The notes under the pieces: generated by a model
What the model saw: only the letters and a program-made list of their open reading frames with translations
Database searches by the model: none
What the model was told of the DNA's origin: nothing
Translations under genes and position numbers: made by a program
Part shown: piece after piece, positions 32,114 through 41,182 of the stretch
How positions within the stretch are numbered: the first letter of the stretch is position 1
Layout: each line of letters begins with the position of its first letter
Assembly: GCA_001443375.1 (NCBI GenBank)
Contig: LDXM01000002.1
Span: forward strand, 1 to 64,000
Length of the DNA stretch: 64,000 bases
Source of the DNA: Chloroflexi bacterium CSP1-4
GTDB lineage: Bacteria > Chloroflexota > Limnocylindria > Limnocylindrales > CSP1-4
Direction: 5' to 3'

Positions 32114-32902
32114 TCAGATCGTCTCGTTCGCGATCGCGAGGTGGTGGCGCGACCACCGCTCGAGGGCAGATCGCTGCGCGTCCGTGATCACCTCGCAGAC
32201 CCAACCCCAGTGGATCGAGACCCAGTCGCCCGGCCGCGCGTCGTCGGCGAAGCCGCGGCCGTCCACCTGGCGGGCGATCCGCTCCTCGCGCGGCGGGTCG
32301 AGGGCGAGGCGTCCGTCGCGGAGCACGAGCGGAGAGCGCTTGGCGACGAGCTCGCCCCCGTCGGCCCGAACGACCCGACCCCAGCTCACACGACAGCCGT
32401 CCATCGTCGCGAGGCTGTGCTCGAGCTCGCCGACCCGGCTGTGAACATCGAGAACATGGAAGCTGTGGTGGGGCCGGGCGCCCGCGGGCGCCTTGCCGAG
32501 GACGAGCTCCCGGCTCCGGCCCTGAAGCTGGCGCCCGAAACGCTCGCGGAGCGAGTCGTACAGCTCGCTGACCTCGACCCGCTCGAGGAGCGGGCTGCCG
32601 AGCCAGTAGGCCTCGACGACCCGGACGTCGAACGGGTCACGGATCCCGTTCGCCCGGGCGATGAGCTGGAGGTACGGGAGGGCGCCGGTGAACGACCGCA
32701 GGAGCGGGGCGAGCCCGCCGTCGTCGACCCGCTCGACAGCATGATCGAAGAGCGTCCGGTTGACGTCCGCGCCGCAGTAGCGAAGCCGGTTCGGCATGAA
32801 CGCATAGCGGATGAACCGGAGCGTGCCGGCAAGCGGCGCTGCCGGGGGCTCGAGAGCGATCCCGGCGGGAGCGGTCTCCGAGGACCTCGGCGAGACCGTC
32901 AT
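32114..32902 (-). CDS. Hydrogenase-operon-associated protein (DUF6390-like)
   Basis: FIRYAFMPNRLRYCGADVNRTLFDH; HSFHVLDVHSRVG; overlaps hypC start. Confidence 0.65.
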   Translation of the reverse strand: MTVSPRSSETAPAGIALEPPAAPLAGTLRFIRYAFMPNRLRYCGADVNRTLFDHAVERVDDGGLAPLLRSFTGALPYLQLIARANGIRDPFDVRVVEAYWLGSPLLERVEVSELYDSLRERFGRQLQGRSRELVLGKAPAGARPHHSFHVLDVHSRVGELEHSLATMDGCRVSWGRVVRADGGELVAKRSPLVLRDGRLALDPPREERIARQVDGRGFADDARPGDWVSIHWGWVCEVITDAQRSALERWSRHHLAIANETI

Positions 32903-33132
32903 CGGCTCGCCTCCTCGAGCATCGCCTCGAGCCCGGCGTAGAAGCCCAGGACCATCTCGACGTCCTCCGGGTCCATCCGCTCCAGCGCCTGGCTCGCGTA
33001 GACGACGACGTGCTCGCCGACCGCAAGATCGTCGAGGCCCGTCGCATCGACCCACGTCGGCCGGCCGTCGTAGTCGACCTGGACACGGGTCCCCTCGACC
33101 CGCAGGACGCGGCGCGGGATCGCCTGGCACAT
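32899..33132 (-). CDS. hypC: HypC/HybG/HupF hydrogenase maturation chaperone
   Basis: N-terminal MCQAIPRRVLRVEG; 78 aa; operon context. Confidence 0.9.
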   Translation of the reverse strand: MCQAIPRRVLRVEGTRVQVDYDGRPTWVDATGLDDLAVGEHVVVYASQALERMDPEDVEMVLGFYAGLEAMLEEASR

Positions 33133-33137
33133 CGCCG

Positions 33138-33668
33138 CTACCCGGCGACCGGGGTGGCGCCTGCCGGCGCGGTCGCAACGGCGAGAGCCTGCTCGGCCAA
33201 CCGGCGGACCTGTCGCGCCGCGATGGCCACGGCGCGAGCGACCGGTTCGCTCAGTCCCTCCCCGTGCGTCTCCGCGTCGAGCGGCTGGCAGCCGACGAGG
33301 CGGACGGTCCCCGGCAGCACGCCCAGCGACCGGGCGAGGAGCAGGATCCGGTACGGCTCGGCGAGATGGAGGTTGGAGAAGAGCGCCCGCCACGCGTCCG
33401 GATCCATCTCGGACGGCTCCGGGATCTCCGGCTCGAGGACCCAGACCGTGCCGGGTGCCTCGCCCCGATCGACCGCATCGACGACGATGAGCGCGTCATA
33501 GCGATCGATCAGCTGGTGGACGACACTCATCCCACCGATCCCGGTCTCGATCAGGTCCACGCCTCCGGGCAGGGGGTCGCGGTCTAGCACCTCCGCGACC
33601 CGGACGCCGAACCCGTCATCGCCTCGGAGAACATTGCCGACGCAGGCCACCAGGATGCGCCCCGTCAT
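33138..33668 (-). CDS. [NiFe] hydrogenase maturation endopeptidase (HyaD/HoxM family)
   Basis: VACVGNVLRGDDGFGVRVAEVL; LIETGIGG; ALIVVDAVDRGEAPGTV. Confidence 0.9.
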   Translation of the reverse strand: MTGRILVACVGNVLRGDDGFGVRVAEVLDRDPLPGGVDLIETGIGGMSVVHQLIDRYDALIVVDAVDRGEAPGTVWVLEPEIPEPSEMDPDAWRALFSNLHLAEPYRILLLARSLGVLPGTVRLVGCQPLDAETHGEGLSEPVARAVAIAARQVRRLAEQALAVATAPAGATPVAG

Positions 33669-34621
33669 GACCTGCCGCCCCGGAGTACCCCGATCCGGAT
33701 CTCCGCGCCCACGACGGCAATGGGCATGACACCGAGACCGGAGCCCTCCGCGTCGAGCCGGCGTCCGCCGCGGATGTCGAAGCGGCAGCCATGCCACGGG
33801 CAGATGAGCGTCGAGCCTTCGAGCCGCGCTCCCGATGCGAGCGGCAGCGGGGTACCTGGACACACGTCCCGATAGGCGTAGAAGTCCCCGTCGAGGCCGA
33901 CCACGAGGACGCCCAGCCCCTCGACCGCGACACCGCGGACCGTTCCGGGCAGGACCTCGGCGACCGGCATGGCCGACCGCCAATCGAGGGTCGGACGCTC
34001 AGGCCGCCTGAGGTTGTCGATCTGGATGAGCCCTGGCGGGCTGGCGGGCTGCGCGGACGGGCTGCGGACATGGACGTGGCCGGGGCGTTCGGGCACGATC
34101 TCCACCTCCATCCGCTCGAAATCGGGCAGGCCGTCGCGGAGGGCCTGCTCGATGACGTGACGGAGGGTGGCCGTCGAGCCGACGCACCCCGCGCAAGCGC
34201 CGGCCAGCCGCACCGTCACGACGCCGCCCACCGCGTCGAGTACGGCCAGCTGTCCCCCGTGCGACTCGATGTACGGTCGGGCCGCCTCGAGAACCGCCTC
34301 CGCCCGCAGCCTGTCGCCGTCGTCGCCCAGGTCGTACAGATCGAACAGGAGGCGGACCTCCGGATTGATCAAGACGCGCTCGCGAAGGTCGGCCTCGCGG
34401 AGAACGGCGTCAAGTCGCCGCAGGCCCGCGCGGTGAACGATGTCGACGGCGCGAAGGAGGTCCACGAGCAGTCCCTGGACGCGCTCGTCGGCATCGGACT
34501 CGACGGTTGCGACGAGCTCGGTCAGGCGCTCGACGGCATCGGCGACGGCGGCCGGAAGCGCATCGGCCGCGAGCGGAGCGGCCGGCGCGAGATCCGCGAC
34601 CGCCTCCGCCCTACGCGCCAC
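33665..34621 (-). CDS. NifU-C-domain/Rieske-domain fusion protein, hydrogenase-associated
   Basis: LAGACAGCVGSTATLRHVIEQAL (NifU CxxC) and LICPWHGCRFDIRGG (Rieske-like); GTG start at 34621. Confidence 0.85.
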   Translation of the reverse strand: MARRAEAVADLAPAAPLAADALPAAVADAVERLTELVATVESDADERVQGLLVDLLRAVDIVHRAGLRRLDAVLREADLRERVLINPEVRLLFDLYDLGDDGDRLRAEAVLEAARPYIESHGGQLAVLDAVGGVVTVRLAGACAGCVGSTATLRHVIEQALRDGLPDFERMEVEIVPERPGHVHVRSPSAQPASPPGLIQIDNLRRPERPTLDWRSAMPVAEVLPGTVRGVAVEGLGVLVVGLDGDFYAYRDVCPGTPLPLASGARLEGSTLICPWHGCRFDIRGGRRLDAEGSGLGVMPIAVVGAEIRIGVLRGGRS

Positions 34622-35033
34622 GAGCCGCCTCCGGCCGGTTCGGGCACGCGTCCGCGTGGTGCCGCGGATCCTGGCACCAGCAGCCGGGGCCGCATTCGCC
34701 GTGCCCCGCACGGGTCATCGACGCGAACTCGTCGTCGAAGCTGCGGGCACCCTCCTCCGAGCCGCGCTCCGTGAGGAGGAACCGGCGTGGCGACCGATCG
34801 GCGGCGACGACGAGGCCACCCGCAGCCAACCGCTCGAGCTGGACGGCGACCATGGCCGGCTCCGCGGCGAGGAAGCGGGCCAGCTGGCTCGCGTCGACAT
34901 CGGCGGCGATCCCCTCCCCGCGCATCCAGTAGAGCGCCTGGAGGATCTCGGAGCGCCAGAAGAGCTCGTTGAGCGCCTCCGCTCCGGAGCCCGCCGGTAC
35001 CGCCTCGGCCCGACCGTTGCGCCCCGCGATCAT
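34611..35033 (-). CDS. Winged-helix-like protein with Cys/His-rich C-terminus, hydrogenase-associated
   Basis: LNELFWRSEILQALYWMRGEG...QLERLAAGGLV; tail GHGECGPGCWCQDPRHHADACP. Confidence 0.65.
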   Translation of the reverse strand: MIAGRNGRAEAVPAGSGAEALNELFWRSEILQALYWMRGEGIAADVDASQLARFLAAEPAMVAVQLERLAAGGLVVAADRSPRRFLLTERGSEEGARSFDDEFASMTRAGHGECGPGCWCQDPRHHADACPNRPEAARGA

Positions 35034-35578
35034 GCCAGCCACTTCTCGACCTCGCGCCGCACGAGCGTCTCGACGGCGGCGAGGGCGACCTGGACCGGCT
35101 CGCTGACGACCGGTCCCCAGTCCTCGTCGCGGGGCTCGACCTCGATGACGGTCACGCGTGGAGGGAGGGCCTCGAATCGGCCGAGGATCGCGAGGAGGGC
35201 GTCGAGGCTGATCAGGCCGGTGACCGCCTCGGCGACCCATCCCTGGATCTCGTCGTCGGACCGGCGCGATGGGCGGTACGGCGCGCACCGGACGGTCCCC
35301 GGAGCGTCGCCCCGACGGACGCCCGCGACGAGGATCATGGCGTCGTAGGGCTCGGCGGCCTGCAGGGCATGGAGGACGTGGACGGCACCCGCGCTCAGGT
35401 CTTCGACGTCGACGCCGGCCGGCCAGTCGAGGCATGCCAGGCGCTCCACGAGGAGCGGTCCAGCCGACAGGTCACGCAGGTTCGTGTAGCCGACCCCGCC
35501 CACCAGCACGCGCCGCCCACGAACCGCCGCGCCCGGGACGGCGTCGGCTGACGGGGCTGCGACGCTGCCCAGGCCCAT
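35030..35578 (-). CDS. Second hydrogenase maturation protease-like protein
   Basis: VLVGGVGYTNLRDLSAGPLLVERL; AMILVAGVRRGDAPGTVRCAPY; overlaps next gene. Confidence 0.75.
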   Translation of the reverse strand: MGLGSVAAPSADAVPGAAVRGRRVLVGGVGYTNLRDLSAGPLLVERLACLDWPAGVDVEDLSAGAVHVLHALQAAEPYDAMILVAGVRRGDAPGTVRCAPYRPSRRSDDEIQGWVAEAVTGLISLDALLAILGRFEALPPRVTVIEVEPRDEDWGPVVSEPVQVALAAVETLVRREVEKWLA

Positions 35579-37456
35579 CTAGTCGTCCAGTTCGCAGGCG
35601 CAGGTCGTGACCTCCTGGACGATCGTCTTCGCCCCCGCATAGACGTGGGTCGTGCAGGGCATGCACGGGTCGAAGCTGCGGATCGTGCGCAGGATGTCGA
35701 TGGCCTTGAAGTCGTCCGGGCTGTCGAACCGCTCGAGGATCGGCGTGTTCATCACCGCCTCCTCGTACGGGCCGGGCTTACCGAACGGATCCGGCGGCGA
35801 CGCGTTGGTCGTCGAGGGCGTGTTGATCTGGTAGTTCTCGATGAGGCCGCCGTCGAGCACGAGGTGATGGGCCAGGTAGCCCCGCCCGGCGCCCCAGAAC
35901 CCGACACCGATCCGCCGGTCGCGCGGGACGACGAAGTCGGCCGAGACCCTCGTCTCGCCCTTCTTGATGAGGTCGTAGCCGGCGAGGAGGTTGTTCAGGC
36001 AGACGAGGGCCGAGTACGCCTGGGCGAACGCCCGGGCCCGGTTGCGCTCGACCGCGTTGTTCTCCTCGGGCACCTTCCATTCGAGGGTCATCTCCGGGAG
36101 CGCGCCCTTCGGGAGCGTCATCCGCATGCTCGTGCCGGTAGGCTCGATGAACGGGTTGGCGGGCATCTTGCGGGCGACGGCGGTGATCCACATCCGCGCG
36201 TAGGCGCCGGCCTCGAGGACCTCGCGATCCCAGCGCGGCGACGTCGCCCAGGTGTACTTCTCCTTCCAGCTCCGGCCGGTCGGCGCCGGCAGGGTCTGCT
36301 TGTTCCAGGGGTGGTGCGGGCTGAGCGGGTTGCCGAGCGGGTCGGTCGGAAAGGCGGGCGTCCCATTCGCCCACGGCTCGTAGTAGGAGTGCTCGACGAA
36401 TTCCTCGAGGCCTAGATTGATCCGCTGCAGATCGGTCGTCCGGAGCTCGCCGGCGACCATCGCGCCCGGCGTCGCCCAGCGCGCCTCACCCCACTTGTCG
36501 GCGTTGGCGTAGGTCGCGTCGTAAGCCTCATGGTGCTCCCAGATCCCGAGGTCGATGAAGCTCTTCGGTCGGCTGCCGATGCGGTGGAAGCCGGGATTCG
36601 CCGCGTACAGGAACTCCGAGATGTCGTCCCAGATCAACGCCATCCGCTTCGAGTGGTCGAGCAGCTCGAACAGGCGGATCTGGTACTCGTTGAGTGTCTG
36701 GGTGGTGATCGTCGTGCTGATCCCGCCGGGGACGATCGTCTGTGGGTGCGGGTACTTGCCCCACACGAGGACGCACATCTCGCGGGCGCGCCGGGTGACC
36801 TCGAACGCTTCGAGATAGAGCGCACCCGACAGCGGGGTGAGCGCGGTCATGATCTCGGCGACCGTGCGGAAGCCGTGGACAGCACCATGAAGGGTCGGTG
36901 CCGTCTCCGCCGCCGTCCACAGCTCCGGGTTGGTCGCCTTGACGACCGGCTCGGAGTAGTCCGGCCCGGCCAGCAGGAACAGGTGGAGCGGGTGGTCGTA
37001 CAGGAACTCGGCCGCCTGGCCGAGGTTCCGGACGATCGTGCCCATCGGCGGCGGGGCGACCCCGAACGCCATCTCGATCGCCTCGGCGGCACAGTTCGAG
37101 TGGACGCCGCCGCACACGCCGCAGGCGCGGCTGGAGATGAAGATCGCGTCGCGCGGGTCGCGGCCCTTGAGGATGACCTCGTAGCCCCGGAACAGGGTCG
37201 CCATCGAGTGGGCGTCATGGACGGTCCGGTTCTCGAGGTCGACGACGGCGTGGAAGGCGAGCGCGCCCGCCACGCGCGTCACCGGGTCGATGCTGATCTC
37301 CTTGATGTGACCGTTGCGTGCCAGGAGCGCCTCCATCCGGGCCTGGCGGTCGGCGGTCTCGGTGCTGGCGGAGTACACGTACGGGTCGGCTGCCCCCTCC
37401 CGGAGATGGGCCTTGCCCGCCTCGTCGAAGACGACCGGCAGGTTCTTGAAGCACAT
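35579..37456 (-). CDS. [NiFe] hydrogenase large subunit, group 1 (1h/1l-like; subgroup uncertain)
   Basis: L1 RACGVCGGVHSNC, L2 DPCMPCTTHVY; 625 aa. Confidence 0.95.
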   Translation of the reverse strand: MCFKNLPVVFDEAGKAHLREGAADPYVYSASTETADRQARMEALLARNGHIKEISIDPVTRVAGALAFHAVVDLENRTVHDAHSMATLFRGYEVILKGRDPRDAIFISSRACGVCGGVHSNCAAEAIEMAFGVAPPPMGTIVRNLGQAAEFLYDHPLHLFLLAGPDYSEPVVKATNPELWTAAETAPTLHGAVHGFRTVAEIMTALTPLSGALYLEAFEVTRRAREMCVLVWGKYPHPQTIVPGGISTTITTQTLNEYQIRLFELLDHSKRMALIWDDISEFLYAANPGFHRIGSRPKSFIDLGIWEHHEAYDATYANADKWGEARWATPGAMVAGELRTTDLQRINLGLEEFVEHSYYEPWANGTPAFPTDPLGNPLSPHHPWNKQTLPAPTGRSWKEKYTWATSPRWDREVLEAGAYARMWITAVARKMPANPFIEPTGTSMRMTLPKGALPEMTLEWKVPEENNAVERNRARAFAQAYSALVCLNNLLAGYDLIKKGETRVSADFVVPRDRRIGVGFWGAGRGYLAHHLVLDGGLIENYQINTPSTTNASPPDPFGKPGPYEEAVMNTPILERFDSPDDFKAIDILRTIRSFDPCMPCTTHVYAGAKTIVQEVTTCACELDD

Positions 37457-37459
37457 CGT

Positions 37460-37747
37460 TCAGGCCTCCTGCGGCACCAGCGCGGCGAGTCTTTGGTCCG
37501 CCGAGGCGAGAACGCCGGCCACGGCCTCGGCTCCCTCGGTGATCTGGGTCAGCGCCGTCGCGGTCGTAGGCAGCTCCGTCTTCAGGATCGCCGTCTCCGC
37601 CTCGATGGCGCGGACGCCCATCGCGACCTTGGCGATGGTCGCATTGATCCCGCTCAACGACCGCCGGATGCGATCGAGCATCAGGACGAGGACGCCCAGG
37701 AAGAGCCACAGGGCGAGGCCGGACAGGATGGTCAGCAGGAGCTCCAT
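37460..37747 (-). CDS. Small single-TM helical protein, hydrogenase operon (4th of 4)
   Basis: MELLLTILSGLALWLFLGVLVLMLDRIRRSLSGINATIAKVAMG...; helix-rich soluble tail. Confidence 0.75.
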   Translation of the reverse strand: MELLLTILSGLALWLFLGVLVLMLDRIRRSLSGINATIAKVAMGVRAIEAETAILKTELPTTATALTQITEGAEAVAGVLASADQRLAALVPQEA

Positions 37748-38052
37748 CAAGCGCGTCCTCCAGCCAGTGCGCGCCTCACGGCCGCGACTCTCCGGGCGAT
37801 CGAGGCGCTCGTCGCGGCGAGCGCTCCGGCGCCGGCGGCGAGCCGTCCGACGACCGGCACGACCCCCTCGAGCGCCGCGATGATCGCGGTGTTCTCGACG
37901 ATCCCCACGGCGGCCGGAAGGGCCACCTTGGCGAGTCGATCGATCTCGCGGGCGTGATGCACGACCCGGACGATCTCGAGGACGGCGATCGCCGTCAGCA
38001 CGAGGGCCCCGAGGAGGGCGATCCACCAGGCAATGACGATCGCGACGTCCAA
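37747..38052 (-). CDS. Small single-TM helical protein, hydrogenase operon (3rd of 4)
   Basis: MDVAIVIAWWIALLGALVLTAIAVLEIVRVVHHAREIDRLAK...; overlaps next ORF by one base. Confidence 0.75.
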   Translation of the reverse strand: MDVAIVIAWWIALLGALVLTAIAVLEIVRVVHHAREIDRLAKVALPAAVGIVENTAIIAALEGVVPVVGRLAAGAGALAATSASIARRVAAVRRALAGGRA

Positions 38053-38061
38053 TTCGATCTC

Positions 38062-38370
38062 CTACGCGACTTCGCGCGCGCTGAAGCGCCGCTCGCCCAT
38101 GGCGCCAGCCAGCTCGTCGTCGGCGACGTCGAGATGCTCGGCGGTCTCGGCGAGGGCCGCGGCAACCTGACCCAGTCCGTCGTTGAGAGCCGTCACGTGA
38201 TCCGACAGCGGCGCCGTCTGGCGTTCCACGACCAGGAGGCCGTCGGCGATCCGGCCAAGGCTCCCGGCGACGCTCCAGAGCGCCCGCCCGATGACGATCA
38301 GACTGACCGCGACGACGATGACCAGGACCGCGGCATAACCGACGCTCAGCGCCGTCAACAGCTCGATCAT
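38062..38370 (-). CDS. Small single-TM helical protein, hydrogenase operon (2nd of 4)
   Basis: MIELLTALSVGYAAVLVIVVAVSLIVIGRALWSVAGSLGRIADGLLVVERQTAPLSDHV... Confidence 0.75.
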   Translation of the reverse strand: MIELLTALSVGYAAVLVIVVAVSLIVIGRALWSVAGSLGRIADGLLVVERQTAPLSDHVTALNDGLGQVAAALAETAEHLDVADDELAGAMGERRFSAREVA

Positions 38371-38669
38371 CCTGTGCCCCCCCGACCCAGCGCCTCGGGC
38401 AGCCGGGCGAGCCGGTCGTCCATGGACATCGCGACGGTGGCGATGTCCTGGGCGGTGCGCAGGATCTCGGTCGCGGTCTCGTTCGTCTTCTGGAGCTGCC
38501 AGATCTGGACCGTGTTTGTGGCGATCGCCGTTCCGGCGCCCCACACGGCCTGGGCGTGCGCGTCGATCCGCTCCGCGGCACGGGCGATCCAGATGAGCAG
38601 CGCGGCCACGACGAGGACCACTACGAGGGCGATCCCGAGGGTCACGATCCAGAGCGTCGTGGGATCCAT
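38367..38669 (-). CDS. Small single-TM helical protein, hydrogenase operon (1st of 4)
   Basis: MDPTTLWIVTLGIALVVVLVVAALLIWIARAAERIDAHAQAVWGAGTAIATNTVQIWQLQKTNETATEIL... Confidence 0.75.
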   Translation of the reverse strand: MDPTTLWIVTLGIALVVVLVVAALLIWIARAAERIDAHAQAVWGAGTAIATNTVQIWQLQKTNETATEILRTAQDIATVAMSMDDRLARLPEALGRGGTG

Positions 38670-38688: not shown

Positions 38689-39906
38689 CTACCGGTCCTT
38701 GGCCGCCGTGCCGGAGTGGCGGATCCAGTCGTAGCCGACGTGGATCAGGCGATCGACGAATGTCGGGCGCGGCGGCGCGCCCCAGCCGCTCGGGACTTCG
38801 CCCGCGCGGTCCCAGCGAGCTGTCCGGTCGCGGTCCCGCTCGCTGACCCGGCGGAGGGGCCGGATGAACAGGCCGGTGAGCTTGGCGCCGGTGGCGGAGA
38901 ACGTCGAACCGGGCGGCTTCTTGTAGAAGGGCGCGAAGCGGTCCGGGAAGCCCGGCATCGTGCAGCCGATGCACACCCCGCCGACGTTCATGCAGCCGCC
39001 CACGTGGTTGATCGCGCCGCGGCTCGTGATGTTGCAGTTCACGACCGGGCCCCAGCAGCCGATCTCGACGAGGCACTCCTTGTCGCCATACGCCTCGGCG
39101 AACGTGCCCTCCTCGTAGTAGCCGGCCCGGGTGCAGTTCCGGTGGACGGTCTCGCCGAACAGCCAGGCCGGCCGGCCGAGCTCATCGAACTCGGGCAGCG
39201 GCCCGACGCCCTGCAGGAAGAGCAGCACGGCGGCGACCGTCTCGGTGAAGTTATCGCCGACCGGGGAGCAGCCCGGGATGTTGACGACCGGCAGGCCCAG
39301 GGCGCTCCGGTAGTCCTTGCCCAGGAAGTCCATCATGCCCATGGACCCGGTCACGTTGCCGAACGCCGCGGGGATTCCACCCCACGTCGCGCAGGTGCCG
39401 ATCGCGATGACCGCAGCGGCCCCGGGTGCGAGCCGGCGGACCCACTCGGCGGACGGGACCTGGCGCAGCCGGCCGTCGACCTCCTCCTCGCCGACCGCCG
39501 ACCAGTACCCGCCGGAGCCAGCCGCGAGCGACTCGTCGGCGAGCGATCCCTCGTAGACGATGACGTACGGGTCGCCGAGCTCGCCGCGCCAGGCCCGCCA
39601 CATCGGCTCCATGTAGGCTGCGCCGGCCTCGAGCTGGACGGCCGTGTGATGGAGGAAGACGAGTGGGATGGCCGGGAGCGAACCGGTCAACAGGCTCTCG
39701 ACGGACGGGGTGGTGGCTCCCAGGACGGCGATCGAGCAGCCGTCGCAGCTCATCCCGGCGAGCCAGAAGACGTGCACCCGGTCGAACGGTCCGATCTTCG
39801 TCCGCGGCCCGCCCCCGGCCGCGACGATGGTCGCCCAGGCCTCCTGGCTGATGCCCGCGACGTTGCCGACCTGCGAGACCGGTTGCCCGGGTGGGGCGAT
39901 CACCAC
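38689..39906 (-). CDS. [NiFe] hydrogenase small subunit, group 1 (1h/1l-like; subgroup uncertain)
   Basis: FWLAGMSCDGCSIAVLGATTPSVE; AIGTCATWGG; NIPGCSPVGDNF; HRNCTRAGYYEEG; GGVCIGCTMPGFPDRFAPF; no obvious Tat signal. Confidence 0.93.
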   Translation of the reverse strand: MVIAPPGQPVSQVGNVAGISQEAWATIVAAGGGPRTKIGPFDRVHVFWLAGMSCDGCSIAVLGATTPSVESLLTGSLPAIPLVFLHHTAVQLEAGAAYMEPMWRAWRGELGDPYVIVYEGSLADESLAAGSGGYWSAVGEEEVDGRLRQVPSAEWVRRLAPGAAAVIAIGTCATWGGIPAAFGNVTGSMGMMDFLGKDYRSALGLPVVNIPGCSPVGDNFTETVAAVLLFLQGVGPLPEFDELGRPAWLFGETVHRNCTRAGYYEEGTFAEAYGDKECLVEIGCWGPVVNCNITSRGAINHVGGCMNVGGVCIGCTMPGFPDRFAPFYKKPPGSTFSATGAKLTGLFIRPLRRVSERDRDRTARWDRAGEVPSGWGAPPRPTFVDRLIHVGYDWIRHSGTAAKDR

Positions 39907-39926: not shown

Positions 39927-40730
39927 TCAGCCGGCGCTCGGCGCCGCCGACCCGGCGCGGGCCGCGATCGAGTCCGCGAGCGCCGCGATCGCCACCACTG
40001 CCGGACTCGTCGGGTCGTGGTCGACGAGGGCACGACCGCGCCGGTCGGCTTCGGCGACTCGCTCGTCGTACGGGACGATGCCGAGGATCTCGAGGTCGTG
40101 GCTATCCGCGTAGGCGTAGATGGCCGCGCGGTCGCGCTCGTCCCGCACCTTGTTGGCGATGACCCAGACCCGCTCGATCCCCAGCTCCCGGGCAAGCGGG
40201 ACGACCCGACCCGCCGTCTCGAGCGAGCGGTAGTACGGCTCGGTGACGACCAGCAGAGCGTCGACGTTGCGCACGGTCCCTCGCGACAGGTGCTCGATCG
40301 ACGCCTCGGAGTCGAGGATCGTGACCTCATCGGACGGGCGATCGGCCAGCTGCTCCATGACCTCGCGGACCATCCCGTGCTGACCGCAGATGCAGCCCTG
40401 GCCCGCTCCGAGCAGGCCGGTCATCGTCAGGACCCCCACCCGATCCGGCGCTTCGACCCCGAACTCGGCGAGAACCTCGTCGAGCGGGCGGGCGAGATGG
40501 GCGTGGGCCTGGCCGCCGTTGTCTGTCCGCTCGTCGAGGATCGCCTCGCGCGGAACGCGTCGGAGTCGGGTCGCCTCGTCCGCTGGCACCCCGAGCGCCG
40601 CCGCCAGGTTGGGGTTCGGATCGCCGTCGAGGGCGTTGACGCGAAATCCTCGGCGCGCGTAGACGCGGGCGAGCGTGGCGGCGAGGGTCGTCTTGCCCGA
40701 GCCGCCCTTGCCGGTGAGCGCGATCCTCAC
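39927..40730 (-). CDS. CooC-like P-loop ATPase (MinD/ParA superfamily; nickel-insertion type)
   Basis: MRIALTGKGGSGKTTLAATLARVYARRGFRVNALDGDPNPNLA; GCICGQHGMVREVM CxC motif; GTG start at 40730. Confidence 0.85.
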   Translation of the reverse strand: MRIALTGKGGSGKTTLAATLARVYARRGFRVNALDGDPNPNLAAALGVPADEATRLRRVPREAILDERTDNGGQAHAHLARPLDEVLAEFGVEAPDRVGVLTMTGLLGAGQGCICGQHGMVREVMEQLADRPSDEVTILDSEASIEHLSRGTVRNVDALLVVTEPYYRSLETAGRVVPLARELGIERVWVIANKVRDERDRAAIYAYADSHDLEILGIVPYDERVAEADRRGRALVDHDPTSPAVVAIAALADSIAARAGSAAPSAG

Positions 40731-41182
40731 GTCGGACCGCCCACGGAGGCTGTCGCGCGCGCCGTCAAGGACCGGGCCACGATGCTCGGCCCCGCGGCGA
40801 GTCGGCTGTATCGGGCGAGGAAGGAATCGAGCACCGCCCGGTTCTGCTCGAGCGTCCGCGCCCAACCGTCGAGCAGATCCCATCCGTCCGAGGTCAGCGC
40901 GTAGATTCGCCGCGCAGGGCCCCTGCGGGGCAGCTCCCACTCCGAGGAGACGAGCCCATCGCGCTCCATCTGGCGGAGCGACTTATAGACACTTGCGGGA
41001 TCGGCGACCTCGAATCCGAACGGGCGCAGCCGGTCGATCAGCTCATAGCCGTGGGCGGGCGCCTCAGATAGCAGGAGGAGCAGGCACGGCCGAGCGAAGT
41101 TCTTGGGCTGGCCCCCGTCGCAGCGACAATCGTGCGCGGCCTCAGCGGCCTCCGCGGCCTCCAGAACGGGCAACTCCTGCAC
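40727..41182 (-). CDS. PadR-family transcriptional regulator with N-terminal Cys motif; start uncertain
   Basis: CRCDGGQPKNFARPCLLLLLSEAPAHGYELIDRLRPFGFEVADPASVYKSLRQMERDGLVSSEW. Confidence 0.85.
   Translation of the reverse strand: MQELPVLEAAEAAEAAHDCRCDGGQPKNFARPCLLLLLSEAPAHGYELIDRLRPFGFEVADPASVYKSLRQMERDGLVSSEWELPRRGPARRIYALTSDGWDLLDGWARTLEQNRAVLDSFLARYSRLAAGPSIVARSLTARATASVGGPT

Follow-up and report, generated by a model that had tools for sequence, protein, structure and literature searches.

In this work we have analyzed four consecutive small open reading frames (ORFs) located between the genes for the small and the large subunit of a [NiFe]-hydrogenase in Chloroflexi bacterium CSP1-4. 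The window, i.e. the whole stretch of DNA under analysis (64,000 nucleotides, positions 1 to 64,000 of contig LDXM01000002.1), has a guanine-cytosine (GC) content of about 71% and contains many spurious ORFs. On its minus strand the small-subunit gene is followed by the four ORFs, referred to here as the quartet, and then by the large-subunit gene (Table 1); according to Pfam both subunits are ordinary [NiFe]-hydrogenase subunits. The large-subunit ATG lies 3 bases beyond the ORF of small transmembrane (TM) protein 4. Neighbouring ORFs of the quartet either overlap at stop and start or lie only a few bases apart, so that the quartet reads as one translationally coupled operon.

Orthologues of the quartet in three relatives share 49-76% amino-acid identity with it, the ratio of nonsynonymous to synonymous change (pN/pS) is 0.42-0.69 and the GC content at codon position 3 is 0.86-0.92. 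The quartet is under purifying selection and has been kept as a set in the relatives. The positions, lengths and tight or overlapping arrangement of four single-TM ORFs between the subunit genes, from which the original prediction set out, have been confirmed, and the orthologues, pN/pS and codon usage show that the ORFs are genuine genes. Comparison of the small TM proteins with Pfam and NCBIfam gave sub-threshold matches only.

Table 1 Features of the hydrogenase locus, with window coordinates
Feature	Coordinates	Strand	Remarks
Small TM protein 1	38367..38669	-	A-type, 100 amino acids, ATG start, AGGAGG upstream
Small TM protein 2	38062..38370	-	B-type, 102 amino acids, ATG start, 4-base overlap with stop of protein 1
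Small TM protein 3	37747..38052	-	A-type, 101 amino acids, TTG start
Small TM protein 4	37460..37747	-	B-type, 95 amino acids, ATG overlaps stop of protein 3
[NiFe]-hydrogenase small subunit	38689..39906	-	Pfam; no Tat motif, no C-terminal TM segment
Small-subunit C-terminal helix PTFVDRLIHVGYDWIRHSGTAAKDR	38692..38766	-	conserved in enzymes with A/B arrays, lacking in the group 1h references
[NiFe]-hydrogenase large subunit	35579..37456	-	Pfam; 625 amino acids, N-terminus MCFKNLPV
CooC/MinD-type ATPase (PF01656)	39927..40940	-	probable nickel insertion
NifU + Rieske [2Fe-2S] protein	33665..34711	-	HucE/HhyE-like domain make-up, candidate electron relay
ORF with HycI-type hydrogenase maturation protease	33138..33983	-
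ORF with HypC/HupF chaperone	32899..33393	-
ORF with DUF6390 protein	32114..33178	-

Two families of small transmembrane proteins and their link to the hydrogenase

Related loci were found in bacterial and archaeal genomes via two conserved large-subunit peptide patterns, and the best 80 of 347 were named. They come from Chloroflexota, Acidobacteriota, Gemmatimonadota, Actinomycetota, Pseudomonadota and others; distant relatives (e.g. from Bacteroidota) lie outside the sample. The DNA between the subunit genes in related loci carries arrays of five, four or two single-TM proteins, and every array protein found belongs to one of two paralogous families, A or B, as judged by hidden Markov models and profile-profile alignment by position. 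Models of a member's own family detect almost every member, those of the other family hardly any. When members are numbered by gene order from the small to the large subunit (a numbering not matched to the published HylTM names), family A comprises members 1, 2 and 4 of the five-gene arrays, 1 and 3 of the four-gene arrays and 1 of the two-gene arrays, and family B comprises members 3 and 5, 2 and 4, and 2, respectively; the formulas of the intergenic arrays are AABAB, ABAB and AB. Five-gene arrays were seen in Chloroflexota, Gemmatimonadota, Acidobacteriota and Luteimonas ANT-B3E. A/B genes are also carried by culturable species, e.g. Amycolatopsis marina, Blastococcus mobilis and Pseudonocardia kunmingensis. 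The minimal array, one A and one B between the subunit genes, occurs in metagenome-assembled genomes (MAGs) of Chloroflexia/Thermomicrobiales (L038, L039) and is a simple case for structural study.

Scanning of whole loci with both models revealed A/B arrays also where the subunit genes adjoin each other: in Acidobacteriota and other groups ABAB precedes the small-subunit gene, and AAB plus AB, AAAB or AABAB are found on the opposite strand. Many member-2 proteins of five-gene arrays (L055, L067, L069, L094, L095 and others) end in a conserved CPGCPxC motif, which could bind a metal or cluster. Similar ends, CPGCPNC or HCPTC, occur in arrays that lie away from hydrogenase genes (orphan arrays), and the motif is absent from the window quartet.

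The trees of A and B proteins, built from short sequences and weakly supported at many forks, show old, position-specific orthologues. Window members 1, 2, 3 and 4 group with five-gene members 2, 5, 4 and 3, respectively, and the order 2-5-4-3 recurs in those ABAB arrays that precede the small subunit. Because of this position-specific orthology, two old layouts, 1-2-3-4-5 and 2-5-4-3, appear to exist. Five-gene member 1 has no orthologue in ABAB arrays, the window quartet included, and no further A-type copy was found elsewhere in the window genome. The enzymes themselves were compared in a quick large-subunit tree (LG+G4), in which 83 related enzymes and the group 1h references are split with 100% support. 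The window large subunit falls into a clade of nine (99% support) whose visible contexts are all ABAB between the subunits; its nearest relatives are from Chloroflexota. It shares one superclade with the five-TM loci in a tree set holding no sequence labelled 1l, and no sequence named group 1l was found among plasmid records.

The expectation that the quartet would be conserved beside related hydrogenases was borne out. Of the related loci, 50 extend 5 kb or more upstream of the large subunit, and 49 of these contain at least two A/B genes; the exception, L102, has no small-subunit gene, and its MAG has a further locus, L073, that is complete. No A/B genes are present in the five group 1h loci scanned, nor in either of the two further hydrogenase-like loci that the window genome contains. 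Among 151 genomes of the class, strong A-type matches (>45 bits) were obtained in eight, all of which encode this large subunit; in a ninth genome with this large subunit the contig is cut at its gene. Among 349 genomes from the phylum, seven encode a large subunit of at least 57% identity, and each of them carries A-type arrays; so does G237, where the large subunit is frameshifted in the assembly. That the quartet is tied to the hydrogenase is strongly supported.

Two further loci concern hydrogenases of other types. The second [NiFe]-hydrogenase of the window genome (L028, 8780-10297 of G000 contig C9) is closest to soluble sulfhydrogenase 1 (group 3b-like), and there are no A/B genes near it. 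In G057 (L025) both kinds occur side by side: the A/B-type large subunit, truncated at the contig start, is followed within a few kb downstream by a second one of group 1h type.

Predicted topology and shape of the A/B proteins

Each of the four window proteins has one N-terminal hydrophobic segment with a mean hydropathy of 2.6-3.1 over 21 residues, and exactly one hydrophobic stretch is present in 300 of 309 distinct A/B proteins. Positive charge is greater after the TM segment than before it in 288 of the 309, the reverse being true for 7; by the positive-inside rule the tails are therefore predicted to be cytoplasmic (N-out, C-in). The small subunit in the window and those of related enzymes have no twin-arginine translocation (Tat) motif and no C-terminal TM segment, which places the enzyme and the A/B tails on the same side of the membrane.

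AlphaFold2 models of the monomers of window proteins 1 and 4 consist of uninterrupted single helices spanning residues 3-96 and 2-90, with a mean predicted local distance difference test score (pLDDT) of 91 and 94.9, respectively. The A/B tails average 67-68 residues, i.e. about 100 angstroms as a helix, and each quartet protein is predicted to form one unbroken helix, in which the TM segment runs on into some 70 residues of cytoplasmic tail. Periodicity (102.5-105.5 degrees, p ≤0.014) is seen in the tails of all four window proteins. In B tails the heptads are near-perfect: positions a and d are hydrophobic in 89% and 88% of cases and charged in 0-1%, with mostly Leu at a and Ile, Leu or Val at d. 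Parallel tetramers among GCN4 variants classically favour Leu at a together with Ile at d, and by analogy the B tails may share this preference. The B profile also matches designed coiled coils and barrels of four to eight helices in the PDB, a likeness of pattern and not of descent. The N-terminal hydrophobic helix and helix-rich tail that had been described for each ORF from its letters are upheld by hydropathy, the heptad pattern and the two models, and the proposed check of TM segments and coiled coils gave a single TM segment per protein and heptad periodicity in every window tail.

There is no conserved His or Cys in the TM segment or tail of the quartet, and CPGCPxC is confined to member 2 of many five-gene arrays; the possibility that these proteins are cofactor-bearing subunits has been rejected on these grounds.

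A further element has been found in the small subunit. In the superclade this protein continues past the PSGW motif into a conserved helix (e.g. HFFYEKxQ; VDRLIHVGYDWIRHSG in the window), which none of five group 1h small subunits possesses. The helix would be a natural docking element.

Comparison with known hydrogenase systems

A paper of 2022 describes, for group 1l clusters, five short proteins with predicted TM segments (HylTM1-5) whose genes lie between those of the subunits (PMC9561532, which cites an Antarctic soil study on them). The window likewise has short TM proteins in this place, but four instead of five, in the order 2-5-4-3 and without member 1 and CPGCPxC; the five-gene arrays found here fit the published description. 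The quartet is almost certainly of the HylTM type. The original prediction had presented it as a possible undescribed form of hydrogenase attachment and had named a match to the group 1l TM proteins as evidence against itself. Such a match exists, so the claim of an undescribed form fails as to the existence of these proteins, and it is not refuted as to their mechanism: no paper testing HylTM function, and no paper besides PMC9561532 mentioning HylTM, was found in a literature search.

Group 1m clusters, reported from Actinobacteriota, have adjacent subunit genes and two small single-TM proteins of 82-92 amino acids (PMC9561532). The window cluster resembles them in its CooC-type ATPase and HybD/HycI-type protease, and actinobacterial loci with adjacent subunit genes in our set carry A/B proteins on the opposite strand. 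Assignment of the window enzyme to group 1m was rejected, as the TM array is interposed between its subunit genes and its nearest relatives are from Chloroflexota. Group 1h was rejected as well: the large subunit is 42-44% identical to those of 1h plasmid loci and falls outside the 1h clade, and the subunit genes of group 1h are adjacent, whereas a 1.2 kb array separates those of the window. Among solved structures, the window subunits are closest to the Cupriavidus necator enzyme of group 1h (5aa5), and the PDB copy searched holds no close structure for the window enzyme.

In the group 2a hydrogenase Huc, the HucM stalk brings menaquinone 94 angstroms from the membrane (PMC10017518). The quartet could form a comparable structure, a helical, membrane-associated stalk of four chains and about 94-100 angstroms beside a cytoplasmic-type [NiFe]-hydrogenase. 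HucM, however, is a single protein of 188 amino acids which forms a homotetramer and is peripheral, without a TM helix, whereas the quartet consists of four different paralogues of about 100 amino acids, each with a true N-terminal TM segment, and no sequence relation to HucM is evident. The quartet is not HucM; plausibly it works like an anchor or stalk.

The membrane partners of group 1g, Isp1 and Isp2, are a cytochrome b and an iron-sulfur protein, unlike the quartet, which has no conserved His pair or Cys motif. An Isp-type cytochrome b anchor was rejected because the quartet proteins are single-TM and lack conserved TM histidines. Nor does the genome contain any match to PF01292 above the cut-off (one weak match is located on another contig), which bears out the earlier statement that a cytochrome b anchor is absent.

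As to the neighbouring genes, the ATPase probably acts in nickel insertion, as is established for CooC. The domain make-up of the NifU-Rieske protein is that of HucE/HhyE, and Huc of M. smegmatis requires HucE in order to oxidize H2 (PMC6883350). Two ORFs directly downstream of the large subunit (35030-35578 and 34611-35435, minus strand) have no Pfam match; the first resembles a degenerate maturation protease and the second has a Cys-rich stretch at its end.

Possible role of the quartet and alternative explanations

Taken as a whole, we lean towards explaining the quartet as a four-member HylTM variant that forms a coiled-coil anchor or stalk, on which the hydrogenase would dock to pass electrons to menaquinone. 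The TM segment of each protein, oriented N-out and C-in, would continue as an amphipathic cytoplasmic helix of about 70 residues, and two A and two B helices would join in a parallel coiled-coil bundle on the membrane. The cytoplasm-facing hydrogenase would dock on the bundle via its small subunit, and electrons would then be passed on to menaquinone, with the NifU-Rieske protein as a possible relay; in analogy to the HucM tube, the bundle might also guide the quinone. The predicted cytoplasmic rods and the lack of a Tat signal, of a TM segment in the small subunit and of a cytochrome b are in keeping with a hetero-oligomeric anchor or stalk. The role of anchor or stalk is probable; that of quinone conduit, argued from HucM, is doubtful. 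The proposal of such an anchor in the original prediction has gained from the link to the hydrogenase, the predicted rods and the missing cytochrome b, and has lost the word "undescribed".

Several observations weigh against this explanation. Group 1h enzymes reach the respiratory chain without A/B proteins, the heptad pattern of A tails is weaker than that of B tails, and no quinone-site residue can be named in the array proteins. The arrays vary in size (2, 4, 5 and 9 members), so that no single fixed stoichiometry fits, and two Chloroflexota genomes of one family (G354 and G199) carry orphan A/B arrays with no hydrogenase beside them.

The orphan arrays comprise a nine-member AABABABAB (L115, 5124-9218, minus strand), in which several members have about 200 amino acids, and an AABAB (L117, 7580-9279, plus strand) followed by a 554-amino-acid membrane protein outside known families. 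The sole hydrogenase of G199 (44% identity) is encoded on another contig, and in G354 a hydrogenase is present only as short fragments at contig ends. The strict form of the proposal, an anchor unique to hydrogenases, has been rejected in view of L115 and L117; the orphan arrays may serve a different partner.

Among the alternatives, a pure anchor is a real contender, though we give it rather less than even credence. The TM bundle would merely tether the enzyme, and the NifU-Rieske protein or a different carrier would take the electrons to quinone within the bilayer, with no passage of quinone through the bundle. The quartet tails, which have no conserved Cys or His to mark a cofactor site, are in keeping with this, but a tether would hardly need four or five non-interchangeable conserved paralogues with tails of about 100 angstroms. 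At the other extreme, the arrays could be hetero-oligomeric coiled-coil A/B tubes of two, four or five different chains that carry menaquinone from the membrane over about 100 angstroms to the cytoplasmic hydrogenase, which we regard as conceivable but rather unlikely.

It is more unlikely still that the proteins are assembly or membrane-organizing factors, i.e. DUF948-like scaffolds which aid insertion, maturation or clustering and are not stable subunits. DUF948 (PF06103) proteins likewise combine a single TM segment with a coiled-coil tail, and 14 of 31 B-type members match the family, weakly (best 4e-5); the window proteins score 18.0 and 16.5 bits, far below the gathering cut-off of 37.2, and were not accepted as members. 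The orphan arrays and the varying position of arrays relative to the subunit genes would suit such factors. The tight operon coupling, the placement between the subunit genes in several clades, the near-perfect linkage to this hydrogenase clade and the pairing of the small-subunit C-terminal helix with the arrays all speak against them. Finally, the notion that the ORFs are over-called frames in GC-rich DNA rich in spurious ORFs, or unrelated toxin-like small TM peptides, has a negligible chance and is already refuted by conservation, given that orthologues occur in order in many genomes, that the heptads are conserved, that pN/pS is below 1 and that no antitoxin-like partner adjoins the quartet.

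The five-gene HylTM form was already known; the four-gene variant and the two coiled-coil rod families across the group 1l-like superclade are new. In oligotrophic desert soils, group 1l hydrogenases, a lineage characterized by the oxidation of H2 at atmospheric levels, have been reported to be more abundant than any other hydrogenase lineage, yet our literature search gave no description of their connection to the respiratory chain. Should the A/B proteins indeed form quinone-carrying tubes, these would be a second, separately evolved quinone stalk beside HucM, common to groups 1l and 1m, and the orphan arrays would serve other membrane partners. The two conserved rod families, which occur in sets of four or five, also suggest a single ancestral system behind the small TM proteins that had been described independently in groups 1l and 1m, and together with the extra helix of the small subunit they provide a model, open to testing, of how the enzyme is attached to the membrane and possibly of how quinone is delivered.
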